Of a DNA stretch of 34,607 nucleotides, positions 11,914 to 27,749 are shown piece by piece. The stretch is from a virus. Positions within the stretch are counted from its first letter, which is position 1. Each line of letters starts with the position of its first letter. The notes under the pieces are model-generated. The model was not told the origin of the DNA, searched no databases, and was given only the letters and a program-made list of their open reading frames with translations. Position numbers and translations under genes: made by a program. The stretch spans positions 1 to 34,607 of IMG/VR virus record IMGVR_UViG_3300008110_000195, one strand, 5' to 3'.

Positions 11914-11959
11914 CGTAACCTCCAGAACAAAAAAGCAACCAAGGAATACTTGGCTGCAT

Positions 11960-12032
<73 letters not shown>

Positions 12033-12074
12033 AAAGCTTAGTGATAATAACAACGAGGCCTAACAAGTCAATAC

Positions 12075-12147
12075 TACCCCTTGAAGGAATCGAACCTTCC
12101 CCGACGAGCTGTATAAGAACTCCGCTCTACCACTGAGCTAAAGGGGT
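12075..12147 (-). tRNA. tRNA-Ile, anticodon TAT
   Basis: A full cloverleaf of 73 bases. Acceptor ACCCCTT/AAGGGGT, D-arm GCTC/GAGC, anticodon stem GAGTT/AGCTC, loop CTTATAC giving TAT at positions 34-36, T-arm GAAGG TTCGATT CCTTC; no CCA. It reads AUA directly. A TAT isoleucine tRNA is rare in bacteria, which normally use lysidine-modified CAT. Confidence 0.9.
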
Positions 12148-12151
12148 GTAT

Positions 12152-12225
12152 TACTCTCGGCGGGAATCGAACCCACAACCTGCGGAGTAGAAATCCGCTG
12201 CTCTATCCAGTTGAGCTACGAGAGC
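12152..12225 (-). tRNA. tRNA-Arg, anticodon TCT
   Basis: A full cloverleaf of 74 bases. Acceptor GCTCTCG/CGAGAGT (one G-T pair), D-arm GCTC/GAGC with a 9-base loop, anticodon stem GCGGA/TCCGC, loop TTTCTAC, T-arm GTGGG/CCCGC (one G-T-type mismatch), discriminator A, no CCA. It reads AGA, a codon favoured by AT-rich phage genes. Confidence 0.9.
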
Positions 12226-16033: not shown

Positions 16034-16147
16034 TCAACTTAATAGCATAACTAGTATAAATACTAGTATAGCAGGCCACCCTACTTGAATAAACTCTACA
16101 AGCGTGTTATAAAGGTGACCTATTTCTTTTGAATCTGGATTTGCCAT
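16034..16147 (-). CDS. 37-aa single-pass membrane microprotein, head-to-head with TerL
   Basis: Translation is MANPDSKEIGHLYNTLVEFI, followed by QVGWPAILVFILVMLLS. This is an N-terminal soluble part with one C-terminal transmembrane helix (about residues 20-37). AGGAGG lies 7 bases before the ATG, and that SD is itself within the first codons of the terminase gene on the other strand. The two start codons share CATG (16145-16148). An 8-bp inverted repeat at about 16050-16067 comes from the repeated Ile-Leu-Val codons. The function is unknown. Confidence 0.6.
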   Translation of the reverse strand: MANPDSKEIGHLYNTLVEFIQVGWPAILVFILVMLLS

Positions 16148-17963
16148 GCAAGAACCTCCTCCTGAATTGAACATAGACTTCAGATCTCTGTCTGATGTAG
16201 ACAAAGTGAATTTTTTTATAAAGTTAGCGCAATCGGGTAGACTTCCTAACTTTGCACCACTGTTGCCTATGGTATTAACGCTAGACGGTAAACCGTATAG
16301 CCTCGAAAACCATTTTCAGTTCGAGACGCTGTTCTATACCAGGATGCCTAAATCCATGGTGCTCAAAACAGGTCGTCAGGTAGGCAAATCCACTGTAGGG
16401 TCTGCTCACGGTGTCATCACTTGCACCTCCATACCTTATTTCCGCACGCTCTACATCACTCCGCTGTTTGAACAGGTGCGTCGTCTGTCCAACAACTACG
16501 TGAGACCGTTCATTGAACAGTCCCCACTACGTACCCTTTGGTTGGGTACGAATACGGAAAACTCCGTTCTCCAGAGATCTTTCCGTAACTACAGCATGAT
16601 GCAATTTTCTTTTGCACTGCTTGACGCTGATAGAGTTCGTGGTGTGAAGGCTGATAAACTTGTTATTGACGAAGTGCAAGACATAGACAAAGATCTAATT
16701 CCAATCATCAAAGAAACGATGTCAGCGTCTCCTTGGGCGATGAGTCAATATACGGGTACCCCGAAGACGCCAGAAAACACCATAGAAGGTCTCTGGTTAA
16801 TGTCTTCTCAAGCCGAGTGGTGTATTCCGTGTAAGGCTTGCAATAAATTAAACGTACCGTCAATCAAGCACGATCTAGACAAAATGATAGGTCCGTGGCG
16901 CGAAGACATATCTGAAAACAGTCCAGGAACTGTGTGCGCCAAATGTTCAAAAGTAATACACCCAAACAACGGCAGATGGATTCATAGGTATCCAGAGCGT
17001 AGATTCCAGTTTGCTGGTTACCACGTTCCGCAACCCATAATGCACATCCACTACTCTGAACCAGCTAAGTGGGGTGAATTGCTAGCCAAACGCGAAGGCT
17101 ACGGCAATTACACGCCAGAGAAATTTATGAACGAAGTTCTAGGCGAAAGCTGTGGAACAGGCGTTCAGCTGGTATCGATGGATGAACTACAAAAGGCTTG
17201 TCAGCTTGAGCACGCTAATAATCCAAGAGATCCTGGTAGCGCTTTGGCCGCCATGAAAAGATACAGATACAAAGTTTTAGCTGTTGACTGGGGCGGCGGT
17301 GGTGATGACGGAGTAAGTCTTACTGTAGTAAGCATCATGGGCATTACGAATACAGGTGTGGTTGATGTTATTTGGGCCAAACGCCTAATGACTCCACACG
17401 ATCACTTGCTTGAAGCTAAGCAGTGTCTAGACTTCTATGACATGTTTAAATGCGACTTCGTTGCGCATGACTACACTGGTGCTGGATCGCTTAGAGAAAC
17501 GTTCTTGTGCCAAGCTGGCGTGCCATACAAACGAATTATTCCAATTCAGTATGTGCGTGCTGCGTCTGGCAAGATCATGTATGTGGTCAAGCCGACAGAA
17601 AACAATCCAAGAGTTTATTACAGAATTGACAAGACTAGGTCGCTACTTACGGTGTGTGCAGCGATCAAGACAGGAAGAATGCGCTTCTTCAAATACGATT
17701 ACCGATCAACAGATGACCCAGGTTTGATACATGACTTCTTGGCTTTGGTCGAACAAAAGACTGAGACAAGAGTTGGGTCAGACATGTATACCATTACCAG
17801 ACACCCTCAGCTTACAGATGACTTTGCTCAGGCTGTAAACATCGGGGCTTGTGCCTTGTGGTACACGACTAATGCCTGGCCCAACCTTAACGTTCCTTCC
17901 AAATTCAACTTATCCGAGTCGGACGAACAGGTGCTTCGGGCTGATCCTGTGTGGAATGAGTAG
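16146..17963 (+). CDS. terL: Terminase large subunit (DNA packaging ATPase-nuclease)
   Basis: A 605-aa protein. Walker A is GRQVGKS (76-82), Walker B LVIDE (172-176), and the coupling motif YTGTP is at 202-206. A zinc-ribbon insert follows (C226, C229, C232 with C264, C267), as in GpA-like terminases. The C-terminal RNase-H-type nuclease begins VLAVDWGGGGDDG with Asp381 as first metal ligand. A later acidic residue in AHDYTGAGSL and the TDDFAQAVN segment near the end fit the other ligands. TerL pumps DNA into the prohead and cuts concatemers. The start is set by the only in-frame ATG; the upstream SD is weak. It is one of only two plus-strand genes. Confidence 0.95.
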   Translation: MQEPPPELNIDFRSLSDVDKVNFFIKLAQSGRLPNFAPLLPMVLTLDGKPYSLENHFQFETLFYTRMPKSMVLKTGRQVGKSTVGSAHGVITCTSIPYFRTLYITPLFEQVRRLSNNYVRPFIEQSPLRTLWLGTNTENSVLQRSFRNYSMMQFSFALLDADRVRGVKADKLVIDEVQDIDKDLIPIIKETMSASPWAMSQYTGTPKTPENTIEGLWLMSSQAEWCIPCKACNKLNVPSIKHDLDKMIGPWREDISENSPGTVCAKCSKVIHPNNGRWIHRYPERRFQFAGYHVPQPIMHIHYSEPAKWGELLAKREGYGNYTPEKFMNEVLGESCGTGVQLVSMDELQKACQLEHANNPRDPGSALAAMKRYRYKVLAVDWGGGGDDGVSLTVVSIMGITNTGVVDVIWAKRLMTPHDHLLEAKQCLDFYDMFKCDFVAHDYTGAGSLRETFLCQAGVPYKRIIPIQYVRAASGKIMYVVKPTENNPRVYYRIDKTRSLLTVCAAIKTGRMRFFKYDYRSTDDPGLIHDFLALVEQKTETRVGSDMYTITRHPQLTDDFAQAVNIGACALWYTTNAWPNLNVPSKFNLSESDEQVLRADPVWNE

Positions 17964-18189
17964 CTTCTTTATGGCTTTCTATAGCCAATCGGATGCACTC
18001 TCGCGCCTTCTCTAAGTCTTCTATGCCATTCTTACTGCGCCACCTGAATAGGTACTTCATGGCACAGCCGATTATGTAATCTTCAAAGCCTCTAGCTCCT
18101 AGGGCAGCACGCTGCGTGTGGTGGCAGTGAATACCGCTGCTGTCTTTAGGGTGGTAGTGGCTGGGTCTGACTGGATCGTTGTCTTTCAT
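17905..18189 (-). CDS. DUF3310 (SaV-like) protein
   Basis: A 94-aa protein with the DUF3310 layout: NDPVRPSHYHPKDSSGIHCH near the start, then FEDYIIGCAMKYLFRWRSKN and GIEDLEKARECIRLAIE. The family is widespread in phages and its biochemical role is unknown. Its 3' end overlaps the end of terL by 59 bases in convergent orientation, with no terminator between. Its start overlaps the primase stop (ATGA at 18186-18189), so it is co-translated with the primase. Confidence 0.85.
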   Translation of the reverse strand: MKDNDPVRPSHYHPKDSSGIHCHHTQRAALGARGFEDYIIGCAMKYLFRWRSKNGIEDLEKARECIRLAIESHKEATHSTQDQPEAPVRPTRIS

Positions 18190-20828
18190 CTGGCAATCCT
18201 TATAACTGGAACATGCCGAAGATCAGCCATGTACTCTTCCCACAGCTGACGCTCAATTACAAAGTATTGCTCAGTTTGTTGGCTGTCTACTGGCTCATCT
18301 AAAGTTGTGTTCAAAAATGGCTGTATCTCCAATCCGTCAGCCAAGTTAAATTTTTGCGAATGGAGTATAGTCATAAATTTACTTATGTCTATACAAGCTG
18401 TGTTGTCTCGCAACACTACTGGTCTGTTGACTCCTTCAGACAGCTGCCCGTTCAACAGGCCGTATCGGCAGCACTCTAAAAATGCGTTCACCACATTTTT
18501 AGGTTCATTAGAGTCGAACAGCTTTATGTTTTCTTTTGCCTTGTCCAATATGTCCGTGTCGCAACCTTTTAACAGCAGCCATTCTTTCATAGCGTCCAAA
18601 ACATAGACAGGCAGGTCTACGTGCTCTGGGACGTTCATCCCTCTTGTTGACAAAAGCCAACTTAAGAAATCAGGGAATATGCGCTTAGCTGCGGTGGCCT
18701 GCCAGGCTATGTGATTGCCTAGCTCTATGTGCGCTACGGTGCATGGGTGCGTCAGTCTGATTATGTTTGCTTTTATTTCGGTAGTTTCTGTAAAGCAAGA
18801 CACGTTTCTTTTAAAGACGGCCCAGGCAGCAAAGTCTTTTAGTTCTTTAAGACGTTTGCCCATAGGGTAGAGCGTAGGCCACAAAGGACTGTTTCTTAGT
18901 ATTGGTGAAATAGTATCAGTTATGCCGAACCAATCGCATACTATTTTTGCCATACTGCTGGTATTGCCGTAATAGAACAGCCTGAAAGCTGTGTCTGTCA
19001 TGGCTGGCTTGAGAGCAGATGCGACCACGCAACCAGCCAATGTCCATATAGACCTGTTGGTGACGCTGTCTACCGTAAGTGGTTTCAGCTGGTCAAACTT
19101 AGCTTTCTCGAAATAAACGTCTTTGGTAGGAAACCCAGGCAGTCTGTCAAACTTACAGTTGTAGTTCGTTACAGTGCCAGCTCCGCTTATGGCAAAGTTT
19201 GCAAACTTAAACAACCCTTCCACAGAGCACCAGCCCACGGTCGTTGACTCGTTAGCCATTTTGGGATTACTGAACGAAAACGCCAAGTCTTTCAAACAGT
19301 GTCGGTATTTCCTATTCAATCCATGATTGAAAATACCGTTAGCTGCCAGGGTTTTTTCTATGTACTTGTAGGCGTTGCCGTGCAGCTGCCCTTGACTATC
19401 GATAAACTCGATTCTGGGTTTATCTTTTATGTAGATAAAACCATAACATTTTATCTTGCCTTTGTTTACGGACATGGTATCAACTTGAACCCTGGCGGCT
19501 GAAACCATGATTCCATTCTTTTTGCAAAACCAACCGTACTCGTTCTCAAAGAATTCTTCTCCCTGCACTACGGCTGTTTTGTGTACAGCTGTGGGCAAGT
19601 TTTTGATGTACTTAGACATATTGGGGTATTTGCCTGACTCTACCTCAACCCAATCAGAAGGTTGCATCTCAAGCAGGCCAACAGCCGCTTCAGCCTCAAA
19701 CTGGTTAGCTGTTGTCAACCATTCTTCTAGAACATCAAAACAACGCCTACCAGATTTAATGACTGAATCCAACCAAGCTGACGCTTTGACTTTGCTAGCT
19801 ATTATCGAGTCAGCTGGCTCTGGTGTTTTGGTGGACAGTAGAAGATTGCCAGTCTTGTAAAATTTAAATGTCTCGCAACTCAGCTTGGGGTTGCTGTAAA
19901 CAAATTTGTTGTTGGTAAACGCTTTGAGGCTGTCAAAGCTGTCGATGTCGGAAACGGCTACCAAGGGCAAAAACTGGTTTGTCTCTTTGAAGTTTTTACC
20001 GTGCAGCTTCAGACCTTCAATAAAGTCATCAACAACGACAACATCTTTGTTTGCGCACTTGTCGTATATGGTGTCAAAGAAGGCCATTGAGCAATACTTG
20101 AGCGCTACTTTTCTGTGCGTAAGGTAGCGCGAGGTAGATTTAAGACCGCCGTTATCAAAGGTCAAAAATTTAAATTCCCTAATTCGACCAGGGACATCAA
20201 AGAACGGGATGACAAGCATGTTAGTCCAGTTGCCTTTAAAAGTCCTGTAGGCGTTGTTTTCTGGAGTCTTGTCCCCATTTGCGTTTACTAAGCTTCTTAA
20301 ATATTCCACGCCTGACTCTGCCTGACGTTTAGTGCAGAATCCTACCAGCTGGCCCATAGTGCTGCGCCAGTCCTCTATGCTGCTTGGTACAGGTATGTTT
20401 AGGGCTCTAAGAGTTTCTCTTATTAAAGAACATTCGTAAACCAAGTTACTTTTTTTAGCCTCTTCCCAAAATTTGTTATGCGTTTTCCTGGATTCAAAAT
20501 TTTTGTTAAGATATGTTTTAATAGTATCGTCAATATTATATGATGACGGTATAATCTTTTTAGATAATAAGTTGCTTATGGCTGTTTTTTCTGGCACATC
20601 CATGACCGCAGCTGCCAGATTAATCAGATCTCCGCATTCCTTACACTGGTTGCAATGGTACCACTGTGCTTTGTAAAATGGATCTGGATATAACGTTAAT
20701 TTTTTGCTAGCTTTGCAGAAAGGGCAATCTGCAGAAGCAGGCAACGCCAACGACGTTAAATTTAGATCTAAGTGTTTAACCAAAGTTTGCCAGTCAATAC
20801 GCTCAAGAATACCAGAGGATCCGTTCAT
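18186..20828 (-). CDS. CHC2/toprim-type DNA primase with a degenerate helicase-like region
   Basis: An 880-aa protein. The N-terminal zinc finger is of primase type (CPFC at 35-38, then YHCNQCKECGDLINLAAAV with C59, C62, C65). A toprim-like segment follows (DVVVVDDFIEGLKL at 262-275, then PLVAVSDIDSFDS), standing for EG and DxD metal sites, although the usual VxxVEGxxD is replaced by VDDFIEG. The C-terminal half (from about 595) resembles the phage primase-helicase core (IWTLAGCVVASALKP, then FRLFYYGNTSSMAK), but GNTSSMAK lacks a canonical GKS/T P-loop. It likely primes phage replication. Head-to-head CATG start with the plus-strand 20827 gene. Confidence 0.75.
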   Translation of the reverse strand: MNGSSGILERIDWQTLVKHLDLNLTSLALPASADCPFCKASKKLTLYPDPFYKAQWYHCNQCKECGDLINLAAAVMDVPEKTAISNLLSKKIIPSSYNIDDTIKTYLNKNFESRKTHNKFWEEAKKSNLVYECSLIRETLRALNIPVPSSIEDWRSTMGQLVGFCTKRQAESGVEYLRSLVNANGDKTPENNAYRTFKGNWTNMLVIPFFDVPGRIREFKFLTFDNGGLKSTSRYLTHRKVALKYCSMAFFDTIYDKCANKDVVVVDDFIEGLKLHGKNFKETNQFLPLVAVSDIDSFDSLKAFTNNKFVYSNPKLSCETFKFYKTGNLLLSTKTPEPADSIIASKVKASAWLDSVIKSGRRCFDVLEEWLTTANQFEAEAAVGLLEMQPSDWVEVESGKYPNMSKYIKNLPTAVHKTAVVQGEEFFENEYGWFCKKNGIMVSAARVQVDTMSVNKGKIKCYGFIYIKDKPRIEFIDSQGQLHGNAYKYIEKTLAANGIFNHGLNRKYRHCLKDLAFSFSNPKMANESTTVGWCSVEGLFKFANFAISGAGTVTNYNCKFDRLPGFPTKDVYFEKAKFDQLKPLTVDSVTNRSIWTLAGCVVASALKPAMTDTAFRLFYYGNTSSMAKIVCDWFGITDTISPILRNSPLWPTLYPMGKRLKELKDFAAWAVFKRNVSCFTETTEIKANIIRLTHPCTVAHIELGNHIAWQATAAKRIFPDFLSWLLSTRGMNVPEHVDLPVYVLDAMKEWLLLKGCDTDILDKAKENIKLFDSNEPKNVVNAFLECCRYGLLNGQLSEGVNRPVVLRDNTACIDISKFMTILHSQKFNLADGLEIQPFLNTTLDEPVDSQQTEQYFVIERQLWEEYMADLRHVPVIRIAR

Positions 20829-21996
20829 GACTCGCTCTCGTCTAGACCAACAGGGTGATACTAACGGTCAGACTCTTCATAGACTGGTAACGCTCTACGG
20901 AGCGCCTGACTTTGTGAAGTCAGCCTCTTCTGACGTTATTAACTATACGGCTGAAGAGAAGAATCCGACTGTATTTGCTGACACGGTCACCCTTTCATTT
21001 CCATGTCATACAGCGCCTGCTACCTACGTATCCATGCTTTATATGCTGGACAGCGAAAGCAAGCTCGGTAAACAAGCTAACCATATTAAGGACCGTATTG
21101 TCAAGGCTGCCGAATATTTTGGCATCAAGAAGCATATTGATTCTCTACTAGAAAAACACGCTTCCATGCATGCCGACAACCTGGATAAACTGTCCGACGA
21201 CTCGTTTGCGTACGTATTCACATACGACAACGGCACTAAAGAGCGCCATCTTCCGCTACGAAACGCACACGAAGTTAAGGCTGCTTGTGAATACCTGAAA
21301 AAATATCGAGACGAGTTCGTATATAACGATAGAGTCAAGATGGCTCAGAAAATACTCAAGTCAGGTTCTCTAGACCAGATTGAAGGCGAAGACTTGACTT
21401 ACCTGTACAAGCAAGCTGGCGCTGCTCTAGGCACGTCCAAAAACGCAGCCAGCCTGTTGTTCAAACGCGCTATGGCTTTGCGCAAACTAGGCAAAGATCT
21501 CAACACGCAAGAGATGCTGGCCAAGGCCGCAGAGGCTTGTCTTAACAATAAGACTTATGTACACACCATGGAAGGAATGCGCAAAGTAGCCAGCCTTATT
21601 GACAAGGTAGACAGAGAGTTCAAACTGCAAAAAATTACTGCCTTGGGCAAGCCTGAAGATTTGTTTAGCTTCACAGTAAAAGAAGCTAACGACTTTGCCC
21701 AAGACAGTGTCCAACTGACTACTGGCAGCATCTACAAGAAGTCAGACCTAGCAAACATCCCTGCTGATGAAATCAAGGATGTGCTAGGCGCTGACTTTGT
21801 AGATAGGGTAACAGCTGGCGGTATGATACTAGACACTGAAAAGCTTGCCGAAGAGCTGAAGACTCTTCCCCGAGGAGACGCAAGACTGTTTGAGCGTCTA
21901 GCGGATGCCGCGCAGGTTAAGCCTTTTGGTAAAGAAGCTTCTAGCCGAGATCGACTGCTGAAACTGGCTGCCCAACACGCACAACTTCTAGCGTAA
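20827..21996 (+). CDS. Putative virion-associated protein, 389 aa
   Basis: It starts MTRSRLDQQGDTNGQTLHRL at 20827 with AGAGGA 7 bases upstream (the frame is open to 20704). Residues 48-95 read TVFADTVTLSFPCHTAPATY, then SMLYMLDSESKL and KDRIVKAAEYFGIKK. A comparable FADP-x2-R-x-(Y/F)P-x-HT-x2-ATW pattern occurs, from memory, in phage proteins encoded near terminase and capsid genes, whose role is undefined. The remainder is helical and rich in Lys/Ala. Being on plus together with TerL, it may belong to the packaging or morphogenesis set. It ends overlapping the minus-strand 21941 gene. Confidence 0.5.
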   Translation: MTRSRLDQQGDTNGQTLHRLVTLYGAPDFVKSASSDVINYTAEEKNPTVFADTVTLSFPCHTAPATYVSMLYMLDSESKLGKQANHIKDRIVKAAEYFGIKKHIDSLLEKHASMHADNLDKLSDDSFAYVFTYDNGTKERHLPLRNAHEVKAACEYLKKYRDEFVYNDRVKMAQKILKSGSLDQIEGEDLTYLYKQAGAALGTSKNAASLLFKRAMALRKLGKDLNTQEMLAKAAEACLNNKTYVHTMEGMRKVASLIDKVDREFKLQKITALGKPEDLFSFTVKEANDFAQDSVQLTTGSIYKKSDLANIPADEIKDVLGADFVDRVTAGGMILDTEKLAEELKTLPRGDARLFERLADAAQVKPFGKEASSRDRLLKLAAQHAQLLA

Positions 21997-22613: not shown

Positions 22614-22887
22614 TTGTATTCTCCTGAGGACCCACTGCATTATAAGACCTGCCAAAGCTATGCGTTTCAAGCCAATCTACTTCAGCAGCTAAAGCGTCCT
22701 CTCTTAATTTATATGGGCCGAGAACAGGACCGCCGACCCTTGTGAGGTCGGCGGTCCATTCACCCTCGGCATTAGGCTCGACATCCGAAGCTCGACTCAC
22801 GCACGACTTGCCTACGGTCATCAGTCCGCGAAGCTCGTCTTTGTAAATGAACTGGATCTCGCCAGACGGGAGGATTTCTACCAACAT
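22582..22887 (-). CDS. Conserved hypothetical phage protein, 101 aa
   Basis: The pattern IQFIYKDELRGLMTVG, then SRASDVEPNAEGEWTADLTR, VGGPVLGPYKLREDALAAEV and DWLE is a recurrent small phage and mobile-element protein: RxSHVEP-x3-G-x-W-x-ADL-x-PVGGP-x-LGPF-x2-R-x2-AL-x-AE. Its function is unknown to me. The start ATG shares one base with the stop of the DUF2997 gene (TAATG). The last 32 bases overlap the GNAT gene. It is probably a regular member of this operon. Confidence 0.7.
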   Translation of the reverse strand: MLVEILPSGEIQFIYKDELRGLMTVGKSCVSRASDVEPNAEGEWTADLTRVGGPVLGPYKLREDALAAEVDWLETHSFGRSYNAVGPQENTNVQCTVDGRS

Positions 22888-23072
22888 TAGTTTTGCGCCC
22901 GAATACGCTGATCTTGCTGGTAGAACTCTGCTTTGTACTCTTTGTTCTGCGCAGCGCCTAGAGCAGCCTCCAGTGACGCAGTCAGGTTTGTGCAGTTGCC
23001 GCCGCTTGCGCCTTCAACCTCTACAGAGGTGGTGCCATCAGCCTTAATGTTCACAACAATCTCAGCAGCCAT
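22887..23072 (-). CDS. DUF2997 protein
   Basis: A 61-aa protein. MAAEIVVNIKADGTTSVEVE is followed by GNCTNLTASLEAALGA and KAEFYQQ: the DUF2997 pattern of a strand pair, a G-x-x-C turn, a helix with LEEALG, and a KxEFY end. Members are typically encoded next to DUF1257 (Ycf35-like) proteins in cyanobacteria and phages. The biochemical role is unknown; the invariant Cys suggests metal or redox use, which is inference. The start overlaps the end of the 134-aa gene by 11 bases. Confidence 0.85.
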   Translation of the reverse strand: MAAEIVVNIKADGTTSVEVEGASGGNCTNLTASLEAALGAAQNKEYKAEFYQQDQRIRAQN

Positions 23073-23466
23073 CTTCCAAACTCCTCAAAATAATGGTAAT
23101 AGATCCGTCTCTCGACACTCGCATTGAATGTCGGTATAGCCCATTCTCTTTTGAAAACTTTTCTATCTCTCTCAAAGCTATGGCTTTTTTGAGAAGATGA
23201 CCACCAACCCCAATGCAGCTTTGCAATTGAAAGTTGGTGGTCGATTCTTTCCAAACCAGCTCAAAGCCTTGACGTAATTGGAATACGCCAATGGTCAGTA
23301 CGGGAACTTCGCTTTCAACACAACTATTAGGAATCAACACTCCGTACCCTGGACCTTTGACAGTATACGCACATAACGGCCATACACGATTTTCGTAATG
23401 CGATAGATTACAATCGTGAGCCACTGGGTTGAGCAACCCCTGACTCAATGTGGCCGTAACAAACAT
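23062..23466 (-). CDS. Hypothetical protein between DUF1257 and DUF2997, 134 aa
   Basis: It begins MFVTATLSQGLLNPVAHDCN. A middle strand-rich section (LTIGVFQLRQGFELVWKEST) and a C-terminal part (YRHSMRVSRDGSITIILRSL) show the same strand-turn-strand-helix architecture as DUF1257 proteins: the closing section resembles the GF-x-V ... G-x-I-x-L end of its neighbour. It may be a diverged DUF1257 paralogue, an inference. The start shares one base with the DUF1257 stop (TAATG). Confidence 0.55.
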   Translation of the reverse strand: MFVTATLSQGLLNPVAHDCNLSHYENRVWPLCAYTVKGPGYGVLIPNSCVESEVPVLTIGVFQLRQGFELVWKESTTNFQLQSCIGVGGHLLKKAIALREIEKFSKENGLYRHSMRVSRDGSITIILRSLEDGC

Positions 23467-23822
23467 TAGCGTCCTAGGCGTAGCTGAATAGTGCCTTCTG
23501 CAGTCAGGTTACGACTAAGGACACGAAATCCTCCAGTCTGCGCCTGCTTGAGAGTAACGTTCTCAGCATACTTTTGCCGAAATTCGTTGAAGCTCTCTTG
23601 AGAACCCCAACGGCCCTCGTAGTTGTCAAACGTAGCCACGCCATCCTTGATGGCAACAGGATAACGCCAGCCCCTAAGCTGTACAGCGTAATCGCACTCT
23701 TGACGGCCTTCAAACAGATTAACTTCTTTAGCTTCAATATAAGTACCGCCAAGTTCTTCGATAGTCTTCTTGACAGACTCTTGGTCGAGGAACTGGGTGT
23801 CAACGCTGGTCTTGTGAGACAT
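23466..23822 (-). CDS. DUF1257 (Ycf35-like) protein
   Basis: A 118-aa protein. It starts MSHKTSVDTQFLDQESVKKT, followed by EELGGTYIEAKEVNLF, RGWRYPVAIKDGVATFDN, FNEFRQKYAENVTLKQ and GGFRVLSRNLTAEGTIQLRL. These blocks match DUF1257 (MSHF-x2-I-x-TQ-x2-D-x3-L ... YA-x2-V ... GF-x-V-x5-G-x-I-x-L), a family including plastid/cyanobacterial Ycf35. The function is unknown. The start at 23822 has AAGGAG 8 bases upstream; the frame stays open to 24095, but that part is antisense-like shadow. It neighbours DUF2997 and an AAA ATPase, its usual partners. Confidence 0.85.
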   Translation of the reverse strand: MSHKTSVDTQFLDQESVKKTIEELGGTYIEAKEVNLFEGRQECDYAVQLRGWRYPVAIKDGVATFDNYEGRWGSQESFNEFRQKYAENVTLKQAQTGGFRVLSRNLTAEGTIQLRLGR

Positions 23823-23865
23823 TGAAAACTCTCCTTGAAAGAAATAATCCTTGAACCAAAAACTA

Positions 23866-25044
23866 TTAGATGTCCAAACCACGCATGAAAGAACCATACA
23901 CCGCCATGTGGGCTTCGGTGCTATTGATCTCTTCCCTGATGTCAGAGAAGTGTTTGGCCAAATCCCTTGCAGCATTCTCGCTGGAGTTGACCTCTTTGTG
24001 GTCAACGCCGTTGATGAGATGCCCAGCGGTAACCAAACGAGCCTGCAAGTCAGCAGGCACCATGAACGAAAAACCCTGAAGTTTGGCGTGAGCAACCTTC
24101 AAGGCGTTCAAGGTATCGCCCCTGAATCGACTGCCTTTAGACAAGGAACCCTCGATGTGGGCGAGAGCTTGCGCAAATTCCGCGATAGGCTCTTGAATCA
24201 TGGCTTTCACAGCCTGACTCACAGCCTGGGAGGTGGCTTGCCTAGCTTCGGCAACCCACGCGTCTGCGCCAGCTTCATCCAACAGGGTCCCAACATCATG
24301 AGCAGCCACTTCAACCACATCCAAAAGATGAGGTTTTAGGCGTTGAATAACTTGCTTGTCCTCTTCAGACAGCAAGTTATTTGACAACAGACTGGCAAGA
24401 CCAGTCTCCAGCCTGTCGTCAAAATCAGCAGGCAAGCCTGCTCCAAGGGGGAACAGCATACTGTAAATCTTGTGCATGGAAACAAAAGTGTCTCCATTCA
24501 CAAAATAACGAGACATGCTTTCCCACTCAAATGGGAAGTTCTCACGCACGTTGCTTACGTGAGCCTCCCACTGAGGCCTCAACTCGACAGCCTTATCGGT
24601 ATAGGCTTGTCGAGCTTGGTTCAATCGCTCGAACACGATCTGGGCAGGGCTCTTTCCTCCGTTTTGCTTAGCCAGAGGAACCAAGTAGGCTCCACCGACA
24701 AACGGAGTGCCGTACATATACGGCGCTGACCTGGCTTGCTGACCAATTCGAGACAAAGGGTTCTTGATATGAGGAGGCACCAGTTTAAATCTGGCACCGC
24801 TCAATAACTCTTGAGGCACTTCATGCTCACCAAGACGAACACTCGCATTATCCATCTTGCGTTCTACGCCGATAGCGCCGACTGTAACTTTAACAGCCAC
24901 GCAATTACGGGACAGCTTACGAAGAACCACGTCAGAGCTTGTTCGCTCCAAGTCTGACATATCAATCTGAGGAGTCTGAACACGTGCGACTGGTTCTGTA
25001 GGTACTACGGGAGCAACGATCTCTTGAATAACTTCTTGTGACAT
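23866..25044 (-). CDS. Hypothetical partner of the AAA ATPase, 392 aa
   Basis: It starts MSQEVIQEIVAPVVPTEPVA at 25044 with GAGAGG 5 bases upstream. After a disordered acidic N-terminus there is a helical domain with SRIGQQARSAPYMYGTPFVG then GAYLVPL, and FPFEWESMSRYFVNGDTFVS then MFPLGAGL-like turns, resembling in layout DUF3150 proteins that accompany phage AAA/MoxR-type ATPases. The match is uncertain. The C-terminal half is a long helical bundle (EARQATSQAVSQAVKAMIQE). It lies between the ATPase and DUF1257 genes, behind a terminator, so it may be the substrate or adaptor of the ATPase. Confidence 0.5.
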   Translation of the reverse strand: MSQEVIQEIVAPVVPTEPVARVQTPQIDMSDLERTSSDVVLRKLSRNCVAVKVTVGAIGVERKMDNASVRLGEHEVPQELLSGARFKLVPPHIKNPLSRIGQQARSAPYMYGTPFVGGAYLVPLAKQNGGKSPAQIVFERLNQARQAYTDKAVELRPQWEAHVSNVRENFPFEWESMSRYFVNGDTFVSMHKIYSMLFPLGAGLPADFDDRLETGLASLLSNNLLSEEDKQVIQRLKPHLLDVVEVAAHDVGTLLDEAGADAWVAEARQATSQAVSQAVKAMIQEPIAEFAQALAHIEGSLSKGSRFRGDTLNALKVAHAKLQGFSFMVPADLQARLVTAGHLINGVDHKEVNSSENAARDLAKHFSDIREEINSTEAHMAVYGSFMRGLDI

Positions 25045-25063
25045 AATTTCCTCTCCAAAAAAA

Positions 25064-25093
25064 GGGGGCCGACTCTTGGTAGAATCGGCCCCC
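25064..25093 (-). terminator. Intrinsic terminator between ATPase and partner gene
   Basis: A 9-bp GC-rich stem (25064-25072 with 25085-25093) plus a 3-bp inner stem and a 4-base loop. On the minus strand it is followed by seven T and then the SD of the 392-aa gene. Confidence 0.85.
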
Positions 25094-25114
25094 ATAACAA
25101 CAAACAAAAAAATC

Positions 25115-26707
25115 TTACGCGATGTTGGGATCCTTGAAGCTCAAGTCAACAGCGCGCACGTTAGTTTTAAGACTCTTACGTCCGCTAACGTTACGAGCGC
25201 GATCCTTGCCAAACACACGAATCTGCTCGATGTTCTCTGGATCGACCTTGGTAACGGGCACCAGATCGTTCAAAGCGGCCAGTAACTCCTTGGAGGAGAA
25301 AGTGGCCTTGGATTCTGGGTTGTTGGCATAAGCGTTGAAACGAGCAGCGATGATAGCCTGCTCAATCTCAGCGCCCACAAAACCCTCTGAAGCATTAATA
25401 ATCTTTGTCCACTCTTTGGCGTTAAACTCTACGTTAACGTTACGCTTGCGCATATGGATATCAAAGATTGTCTTGCGCTCTTCTTCGTCTGGCGTATCAA
25501 CGAAAAAGATTTCGTCAAAGCGGCCACGGCGAAGCAATTCGGGAGGCATGCCGTTGATGCGATTCATAGTCAGCACGACGAAAGTCTTGCTTTTCTTTTC
25601 TGCCAGCCAAGTCAAAAGCTGGCCGAAAATGCGGCGAGTAACGCCAGAGTCACCAGTTGACTCTGATGCGCCGCCCAAAACCTTGTCGGCCTCGTCAATC
25701 AATAGGACGCAACCTCCCATTGCGTCGGCAGTTTGAATAGTCTCGCGGGTACGGCGCTCGGATTCACCGACAAGGCTGTTGAACACAGCACCGATATCGA
25801 AACGAATCAAAGGCTGACCAAGCACCCGTGCGATTACCTGAGCGGCCCTGGACTTGCCAGTACCAGGCACGCCGATTAGCACCAAACCTTTCGGCATGTC
25901 GAGCTGCAAATCTTCGGCTTCAGAGCTGTACGCAACTTTGCGTTCTTCCAGCCATGACTTCAAATCAGTGAAGCCACCAAGCTCATCGCCAGACATAATC
26001 TCGCTTTTAGGGGAATAAGTCAGAACCTCGCTCTTCTTCAAAAGCAGTCCCTTCTCTTCCTCGATGGTCTCGATGATATCTTCACACCAACGTCCGTGCT
26101 TGACCAAGCACTCGGCAAGAACGCTCTCGGCGTCTGGGCAATTCAAGCCTGCCAGAGTGCTGACGATGGTGTGCTTAAGCTCATCAGAGATCACACGCTT
26201 GTTGGGATCGTTGATAGCCGCTTGAACCTTATTGAAAGCTACCTCCAACTGCTCGCGACTAGGATGCACCATCTCGATTACTTTCACGTATGGAAGCAAA
26301 TCTTGATTAAGTCCTTGGTTGGTAGTGATCAAAAACACAGTCCTGCATCGAGTAGGGTTGCTGAAATGATTAGACGCGATAGCCAGCTTTAGGCTGCTGA
26401 CCAGCGCAGGAATGGCGTTAAGATCATAGTGCATATCATGCACTGCAATCAAAGCGCGCTTAGAAGTAATAGGACCAGTGTCACTGGTGATTGCTTCAAT
26501 AGCTTGTACTGGATTGATGCAAACATTCTTGCCAAAGCCAGTAGCTGGATTCCAAGAAACGTAATCCATCTCCCGCTCGTTTGCGATAGCCTTGAGCATA
26601 GTCTCAGCGGCGTTGGCTTGACCGCCGACAACCAGCTGAACGCACTGGACACCGCTACGGATGTAAGCAGAAATCTTGGCAGCCACTTCATTGATGTTAC
26701 GCAACAT
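25115..26707 (-). CDS. AAA+ ATPase, Ycf46-like
   Basis: A 530-aa protein. The N-terminal half (ALIAVHDMHYDLNAIPALVS, then FLITTNQGLNQDLLPYVKVI) resembles the degenerate first domain of Ycf46-like proteins. The C-terminal AAA domain is complete: Walker A GVPGTGKS (279-286), Walker B VLLIDEAD (334-341), sensor-1 TMNR, and RRGRFDE (393-399) with arginine fingers. This layout is that of cyanobacterial/plastid Ycf46. It likely remodels proteins by ATP hydrolysis; the substrate is unknown. MLRN at 26707 is preferred over MIMLRN because GAAGG lies 7 bases upstream. Neighbours DUF1257 and DUF2997 support the family call. Confidence 0.85.
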   Translation of the reverse strand: MLRNINEVAAKISAYIRSGVQCVQLVVGGQANAAETMLKAIANEREMDYVSWNPATGFGKNVCINPVQAIEAITSDTGPITSKRALIAVHDMHYDLNAIPALVSSLKLAIASNHFSNPTRCRTVFLITTNQGLNQDLLPYVKVIEMVHPSREQLEVAFNKVQAAINDPNKRVISDELKHTIVSTLAGLNCPDAESVLAECLVKHGRWCEDIIETIEEEKGLLLKKSEVLTYSPKSEIMSGDELGGFTDLKSWLEERKVAYSSEAEDLQLDMPKGLVLIGVPGTGKSRAAQVIARVLGQPLIRFDIGAVFNSLVGESERRTRETIQTADAMGGCVLLIDEADKVLGGASESTGDSGVTRRIFGQLLTWLAEKKSKTFVVLTMNRINGMPPELLRRGRFDEIFFVDTPDEEERKTIFDIHMRKRNVNVEFNAKEWTKIINASEGFVGAEIEQAIIAARFNAYANNPESKATFSSKELLAALNDLVPVTKVDPENIEQIRVFGKDRARNVSGRKSLKTNVRAVDLSFKDPNIA

Positions 26708-26720
26708 GATCATGCCTTCT

Positions 26721-26734
26721 CGAACAATTGTTCG
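26721..26734. promoter_or_regulatory. 14-base perfect palindrome resembling a Gram-positive SOS box
   Basis: CGAACAATTGTTCG is its own reverse complement. It matches the CGAAC-N4-GTTCG framework of LexA boxes in Bacillus and mycobacteria. It lies 13 bases before the AAA ATPase start. It could also form a 5-bp hairpin over the SD. Confidence 0.5.
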
Positions 26735-26766
26735 GTTAGGTAAAGTAAATGTCTTAACGCTAAGAA

Positions 26767-27477
26767 TTATTTGGGTAAAGAAGCCGCTAATTTCTTTACC
26801 ACTTCAGAACTGTCACCGTTGTCTAGCGGAATACCTTCTAATTGGCCGACCATCAAACTCAAACGTTCTTTTATTACAGCGTTGATGTCGTCAGTTTTGG
26901 CTTTTTCTGTTTCAAAAATAGCCTGAAACATTTCTGGATCATCGCTGAAATCGTACTTAACTTTGTCAGCCATACCAGCGTAGTCGCCACGCAAACCAAC
27001 ACGCAAAATATCTGGAGGAGTTAAAATCCCTTCGTTTTTTAACGCTTCAGATATGTAATCAACTATTTCCTGAGCAAACGGCTCTTGATCGTCGTCGTCA
27101 GGCGGACTAATCATCAAAGCTTCAGTCATACCCCATGCGCACTCGGCAGCGTCAGCTGGATCGAAAACAGATGGGTCAAAGAGACTTCCAGACAGTACAT
27201 TGCATAAGTTTATAAAATCTGGAAGAGACTGAAAAAATGAATCAGTCGATAGTACCGCTATACCCGCCATCAATCTGTCGAACACTGAACGTGATAACTT
27301 CACGTCAAAGTCTTGTTCAATTTCAGTTTGGATTGTAAGAGGATCCCATTGAAGAGCCTCCGTACCGTAAGCATCCAAAAATAATGTAAGCAAAGTTGTG
27401 GCAAAACTATTTTGATCTTGCCATACTTTTTTACGTTTCTGAAAACGAACATTTATATTGTGGCGGGTTTCACTCAT
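26767..27477 (-). CDS. Hypothetical protein, 236 aa
   Basis: It begins MSETRHNINVRFQKRKKVWQ at 27477. A helical domain follows (QNSFATTLLTLFLDAYGTEA, LQWDPLTIQTEIEQDF), then a middle section with a DDDDQE acidic patch and a C-terminal helical part (MFQAIFETEKAKTDDINAVI). No motif is recognised. The start overlaps the stop of the 90-aa gene (TGATG), but its SD is weak. It precedes the AAA ATPase by 59 bases in the same direction and may be a partner in that system. Confidence 0.55.
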   Translation of the reverse strand: MSETRHNINVRFQKRKKVWQDQNSFATTLLTLFLDAYGTEALQWDPLTIQTEIEQDFDVKLSRSVFDRLMAGIAVLSTDSFFQSLPDFINLCNVLSGSLFDPSVFDPADAAECAWGMTEALMISPPDDDDQEPFAQEIVDYISEALKNEGILTPPDILRVGLRGDYAGMADKVKYDFSDDPEMFQAIFETEKAKTDDINAVIKERLSLMVGQLEGIPLDNGDSSEVVKKLAASLPK

Positions 27478-27749
27478 CAGATAGTAGCCTCTTGTACAGG
27501 ATAGTGCGCTCGACACTTCCTGACCGTTGCTGTTGTAAAAGCATCGCCTTCAAGGCGATTGCCGTTTTCATCAGTCCACTCAGTCCAAGAATTACCTGTA
27601 AATCCTGGCACCGATAGGCCCATAGTTTTGGCGTGATTCAGTGCAAGATTTCTGGCGTCTAAAGACTTTACAGCTTCTAGGTTGTCGGCTTCAACCACTA
27701 TAGTGCCTTTGTTGCCTAGCCGTTCACAAGACTCACTTACAATACGCAT
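27477..27749 (-). CDS. Hypothetical protein, 90 aa
   Basis: It starts MRIVSESCERLGNKGTIVVE at 27749 with AAGGA 5 bases upstream. A strand-rich N-terminal half is followed by a helical part (NLEAVKSLDARNLALNHAKT). The C-terminus (TATVRKCRAHYPVQEATI) overlaps the next start. The function is unknown. A strong hairpin (27821-27853) lies in its leader. Confidence 0.5.
   Translation of the reverse strand: MRIVSESCERLGNKGTIVVEADNLEAVKSLDARNLALNHAKTMGLSVPGFTGNSWTEWTDENGNRLEGDAFTTATVRKCRAHYPVQEATI

Follow-up and report, generated by a model that had tools for sequence, protein, structure and literature searches.

Does the run of small genes around a Ycf46-type AAA+ ATPase in a viral genome make up one functional module, and on what would such a module act? 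The question was raised by a locus in an IMG/VR virus record of 34,607 bases, which was analysed over its whole length (hereafter, the window). The order of transcription on the minus strand was a90, b236, the ATPase (AAA), DUF3150, DUF1257, f134, DUF2997, p120 (101 aa) and GNAT (Table 1). Gene calls and Pfam searches recovered all the genes named in the original prediction on this strand and where it had placed them, and Pfam confirmed a GNAT enzyme after the 101-aa protein. The original prediction had also treated the genes as one minus-strand operon. The genes lie on one strand and their junctions are tight: a single base was shared at the a90/b236, DUF1257/f134 and DUF2997/p120 junctions, and f134 and DUF2997 overlapped by 11 bases. 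The idea of a single operon has to be qualified, as a GC-rich hairpin with a 13-bp stem, followed by T7, splits AAA from DUF3150 within the longest gap of the core (70 b). Four relatives (L006, L007, L008 and L206) also had a hairpin here, each of differing sequence and read from single sequences, not from covariation, so the AAA/DUF3150 junction looks kept for structure. With a terminator-like hairpin between them, the synthesis of the motor is not bound to that of its partners, and their amounts would be free to differ.

Table 1. Features of the locus, listed in the order of transcription; positions refer to the window.
Feature	Position	Strand	Basis or remark
a90, 90 aa	27477..27749	-	accessory protein; overlaps b236 start
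b236, 236 aa	26767..27477	-	accessory protein; in 16/63 module loci
Ycf46-type AAA+ ATPase, 530 aa	25115..26707	-	PF00004 1.9e-27, motifs, tree
Intrinsic-terminator-like hairpin, 13-bp stem then T7	25064..25093	-	z = -5.5
DUF3150 protein, 392 aa	23866..25044	-	PF11348 5.7e-11; proposed client/effector
DUF1257 (Ycf35-like) protein, 118 aa	23466..23822	-	PF06868 1.6e-5; proposed adaptor
f134, 134 aa	23062..23466	-	accessory protein of close relatives
DUF2997 protein with GxxC cysteine, 61 aa	22887..23072	-	PF11211 1.1e-15; proposed adaptor
p120-family protein, 101 aa	22582..22887	-	fifth core component; profiles and survey
GNAT acetyltransferase, 152 aa	22155..22613	-	PF13508 2.9e-10; only in close relatives

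Elsewhere in the window, a terminase large subunit gene (phrog_675, 1.9e-56) was located at 16146-17963 on the plus strand, opposite to the module, and three clustered tRNA genes, for Met (cat), Ile (tat) and Arg (tct), at 11959-12225 on the minus strand. Two further genes recurred near the module in related phages: one for a protein of about 400 aa (20791-21996, plus strand; 15/63 loci) and one for an 880-aa protein with a weak match to a DnaG-type zinc ribbon (18186-20828, minus strand; 10/63 loci).

The ATPase had been predicted to be an AAA+ protein with a degenerate N-terminal domain. Its class was upheld: the best Pfam family was classic AAA, and the C-terminal half contained an intact Walker A (GVPGTGKS, residues 279-286), Walker B (VLLIDE, 334-339), sensor-1 (TMN, 380) and Arg-finger region (RRGRFD, 393). 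Support for a degenerate AAA-like N-terminal domain was at most moderate, with an hhalign probability of 48% between the N half and its own C half, in register over the sensor/lid region, and of 4% between the N half and FtsH/CDC48. In a quick tree, unrooted and drawn midpoint-rooted, 32 rows including the window AAA and Ycf46 fell on one side of a branch with an SH-aLRT support of 100. The window AAA thereby grouped with the other AAAs of the module, with cyanobacterial Ycf46 and with Corndog-type AAAs, and FtsH and CDC48 lay outside this group. Corndog-type mycobacteriophages (L004, L013, L015, L026 and L031) share the AAA clade of the module, but no DUF1257, DUF2997 or p120 was found near their ATPase gene, which has a neighbour of about 270 aa instead.

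Other identities of the ATPase were considered and rejected. AAA-profile scans of genomes gave mostly FtsH; the window AAA has no protease domain or HEXXH and is separate from FtsH, and likewise from CDC48, in the tree. Membership of the MoxR class (AAA_5/AAA_3) was dismissed on an AAA_5 score below the cut-off, classic AAA being best. The operon is no MoxR-VWA machine either, with no VWA-domain partner in it by Pfam and CobT-like proteins in 0/63 module loci. An IetAS anti-phage system was discarded, the PADLOC match to IetA being confined to the AAA domain and no IetS protease partner being present. An apparent loss of Walker A in 16/60 module AAAs was traced mostly to variant P-loops and to one intein-like insert, with the lysine kept. 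The variants were SPPGCGKS in AAAs of a jumbo-phage group (L348, L284, L306, L320 and others) and GPPGAAKS in a second group (L212, L230, L246 and L251), both with Lys and Ser kept. The insert was found in an 846-aa module AAA (L034:2374-4914); it is long, interrupts the P-loop, starts with C, ends with HN before TGKS and looks like an intein.

The original prediction had listed the 392-aa protein as an unknown; Pfam assigned it to DUF3150 at 42.7 bits (cut-off 24.9). Its AlphaFold2 (AF2) model was mostly helical and weak (pLDDT 71), and a fold search with it against the PDB gave no match at E<=0.001. The same search with the model of DUF1257 (pLDDT 91.9) was equally negative at that threshold, and a fold search in BFVD returned two nameless matches. 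A sequence search for solved relatives of DUF1257, p120 and DUF3150 gave none that were meaningful. DUF1257 and DUF2997 of the window exceeded their Pfam cut-offs (25.5 bits against 22.2, and 57.6 against 24.1, respectively). An N-terminal Ser-His of DUF1257 was kept in 60/63 module copies and the GxxC cysteine of DUF2997 in 62/62.

The 101-aa protein matched no Pfam family. Profiles begun separately, on one side from this protein and on the other from proteins of 116-123 aa that follow DUF2997 in phages of Rhizobium, Aeromonas and Pseudomonas, converged on the same 18 proteins, which we call p120; seven of the 18 matched phrog_38408 (function unknown), while the window p120 matched no PHROG. 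A relation of p120 to DUF1257 was rejected by comparison. Among the accessory proteins, f134, which the original prediction had named as a possible DUF1257 relative, had no Pfam match; hhalign against DUF1257 gave 20%, with the C-terminal 68 columns in register, and f134 was fused to DUF2997 in L008, L208, L209 and L211. Both f134 and GNAT were confined to close relatives. No match to b236 was found in Pfam or PHROG. In 9/63 module loci, a short protein resembling a SWIM-type zinc finger was encoded near p120 or DUF3150 (L242:7222-7749, L234:7127-7597, L331:10593-11048 and six more).

A first survey of gene neighbourhoods was seeded with AAA and could therefore not be blind to it, for which reason p120 and DUF1257 served as independent seeds in a second survey of IMG/VR, restricted to deduplicated loci with full 7-kb flanks. 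The collection scans were seeded with closer subsets of the small families and not with wide alignments. Around p120 (33 nonredundant loci), AAA was present in 31 and DUF1257, DUF2997 and DUF3150 in 32 each; ten p120 loci seemingly without AAA mostly carried more distant AAAs. Around DUF1257 (27 loci), AAA and DUF2997 were always present, p120 was found in 25 loci and DUF3150 in 21. Run as a control against shuffled and reversed ORFs (4557 of each), the five profiles gave 0 matches. The claim that AAA, DUF1257 and DUF2997 recur together in cyanobacteria and phages was thus borne out well above chance by the seeded surveys and the cyanobacterial loci described below, and the neighbourhood survey proposed in the original prediction found conserved co-occurrence rather than none. 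That prediction had let a conserved 101-aa protein merely follow the operon; its conservation was verified, and the p120-seeded survey moved it from the flank into the core.

A total of 135 loci collapsed to 63 groups, taken as seeds or because they held three or more of the four families other than AAA; these groups had four main gene orders (19, 13, 13 and 10 groups) and all genes on one strand. Phages and plasmids that are unrelated share the set. It is held by isolated phages of Rhizobium, Aeromonas and Pseudomonas, and a plasmid of Candidatus Manganitrophus (Nitrospirota) carries AAA-DUF1257-DUF2997-DUF3150-p120 contiguously. Two Desulfobacterota genomes have the set without a detected p120; in Solidesulfovibrio, two copies of AAA-DUF1257-DUF2997-DUF3150 are followed by PDDEXK_1 and AAA_24. 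DUF3150 was the core gene most often missing (49/63 module groups) and was replaced by an unrelated family of about 210 aa in some phages; homology between DUF3150 and the protein of this size at the same place in the Rhizobium, Aeromonas and Pseudomonas phages was rejected for lack of similarity. A literature search returned no paper that joins these families in phages and none that mentions DUF3150.

The cyanobacterial and plastid Ycf46, Ycf35 and DUF2997 belong to the same AAA clade and the same DUF1257 and DUF2997 families, and AAA-DUF1257 and DUF1257-DUF2997 are neighbours in cyanobacteria too. There, however, the three families are usually spread over two loci. DUF1257 was present in 20/39 cyanobacterial genomes, and among 34 loci (including five extra), counted within about 1.5 kb, 14 held DUF1257 with DUF2997, 11 AAA with DUF1257, two all three and seven DUF1257 alone. 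The p120 profile found nothing in the 39 genomes, although the same tool recovers 6/6 known carriers, and DUF3150 was found in 1/39. As cyanobacteria keep the two gene pairs nearly without DUF3150, the pair must act without it. Two DUF1257 paralogues were seen in cyanobacteria (L168-L171 and L350-L378), one adjoining DUF2997 and the other the Ycf46 AAA. A 4Fe-4S ferredoxin gene adjoined DUF2997-DUF1257 in L168 and L169, an arrangement also reported in the literature (PMC4284462). The Synechocystis operon slr0373-slr0374(Ycf46)-slr0376 responds to stress and is of unknown function (PMC7496141, PMC7283877); going by gene order, slr0376 is presumably the DUF1257 paralogue.

DUF3150 is also paired with a second type of AAA+ machine. 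In ten plasmid/ICE-like or bacterial loci it stood beside a CbbQ/NorQ-class (MoxR) ATPase and a CobT/VWA protein, both in 9/10 and CobT only in one. Two of the ten were Burkholderiales plasmids (L180 and L181) with DUF2201 VWA-like proteins; the other eight had CobT-like proteins, with a CobS-like ATPase within the examined stretch in 7/8. In Pfam, the ATPase of L195 and L182 was AAA_5 plus CbbQ_C and the partner CobT, in contrast to the phage module, in which DUF1257, DUF2997 and p120 stand in place of a VWA protein. The searches showed the two partner sets to be mutually exclusive around DUF3150, with DUF1257, DUF2997 and p120 in 0/10 of the MoxR-DUF3150 loci and CobS and CobT in 0/63 module loci. 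The presence of DUF3150 in both the Ycf46-type and the MoxR/CobT setting is a new link. These loci often lay near recombination genes: RecT and YqaJ were next to MoxR-DUF3150-CobT in L195, L196 and L199, and ERF in L182. For one protein of L182, a PD-(D/E)XK label found no confirmation in Pfam. In L180 and L181, a ThiF-family gene (annotated as PRTRC system in L180) was about 6 kb from the MoxR-DUF3150-VWA genes.

How would such a set work? We propose an ATP-driven remodelling machine with three adaptors, DUF3150 as the client and a target in DNA replication or recombination, and give this model as a whole a probability of roughly 0.4. The motor would be the Ycf46-type protein, with one active and one degenerate AAA domain, and would form a hexamer. 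In NorQD, of the MoxR class, the ATPase ring acts through a VWA partner on a separate target (PMC13036017). The phage module is without a VWA protein, but may likewise combine a motor with a dedicated transducer. By analogy with the MoxR ring, DUF1257, DUF2997 and p120 may be read as the transducer, small fixed partners that take the position of the VWA protein and serve as adaptors between motor and client, and DUF3150 as the target, a client or effector that the motor would reshape. Its frequent absence and occasional replacement are the behaviour expected of a client, a role that we assign to DUF3150 tentatively, at somewhat less than even odds. The remodelled complex would most likely be part of the machinery by which the element replicates or recombines its own DNA, although as a specific target this is rather doubtful; here the neighbourhood is the guide. 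RepO-like, DnaB-like, ERF or primase-like genes were near a minority of the phage modules, a count to be read without a phage-genome background rate, and the PDDEXK_1 and AAA_24 genes adjoining the module in Solidesulfovibrio were counted as a DNA link, as were the RecT, YqaJ and ERF genes next to MoxR-DUF3150-CobT. Several observations weigh against the model: the minority share of such neighbours among phage modules, with terminase near 17/63; the negative fold search for DUF1257 and the weak, matchless DUF3150 model; the cyanobacterial gene pairs that are kept nearly without DUF3150; and the terminator-like hairpin between AAA and DUF3150. The original prediction had suggested a protein-remodelling or assembly system in which the 392-aa protein would be client or adaptor; the intact AAA motifs and the pairing of DUF3150 with a second AAA+ machine type fit this, and the roles themselves remain drawn from analogy.

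Other purposes were weighed against the remodelling of replication or recombination complexes. In the manner of NorQD or CobNST, the set could supply a target protein with a metal or Fe-S centre. DUF3150 is common to loci with CobT and a CbbQ/NorQ-class ATPase, a class that inserts metals (PMC13036017), and the conserved cysteine of DUF2997, the Ser-His of DUF1257 and the ferredoxin gene of cyanobacteria would suit such a role; however, no metalloenzyme recurred among the neighbours and the DUF3150 and p120 alignments show no metal motif, and we regard metal insertion as improbable. We give as little credence to a motor that remodels a structural or packaging complex during virion assembly or DNA packaging. 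Virion-less plasmids and ICE-like elements carry the module or its DUF3150/MoxR version, even though a terminase large subunit gene was within 7 kb of 17/63 modules (in the window on the opposite strand, some 4 kb past p120) and b236 directly precedes AAA in a set of phages. Host takeover or anti-defence, with the motor remodelling or unfolding a host protein, would agree with a set borne by mobile elements (DUF2997 was found in 1/398 Pseudomonadota chromosomes) and with the PADLOC IetA models that match AAA. This reading is likewise unlikely: the match is limited to one domain without an IetS-like partner, and the five-gene set is stable across distant phages, as opposed to the fast turnover typical of anti-defence genes.

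The genes might also have no joint function and simply be carried along with one another within a single phage lineage. The mosaic nature of phage genomes speaks for this, and related jumbo phages supplied many of the loci, as the collapse of the collection on grouping illustrates. Against this stand the deduplicated counts, the four gene orders, the carriage of the set by plasmids and bacterial genomes, and the pairing of cyanobacterial DUF1257 with AAA and with DUF2997. Mere drift is thus highly improbable, and the five genes very probably form one functional module.

For the remodelling machine, a wider possibility, which we consider rather unlikely as it stands, is that the Ycf46-type and MoxR-type motors, although unrelated, can stand in for each other in driving DUF3150 as their common client when mobile elements process their DNA. 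In that case, DUF1257, DUF2997 and p120 would represent a novel class of AAA+ adaptors, and the cyanobacterial and plastid Ycf46/Ycf35 a domesticated or ancestral form of the machine. Cyanobacteria have conserved Ycf46, Ycf35 and DUF2997, the first two also being conserved in algal plastids, and none has a settled molecular function. The compact version in phages and plasmids, which adds a named fifth partner and shares a client candidate with the better-understood MoxR-VWA class, makes binding, ATPase and deletion tests of these families possible.
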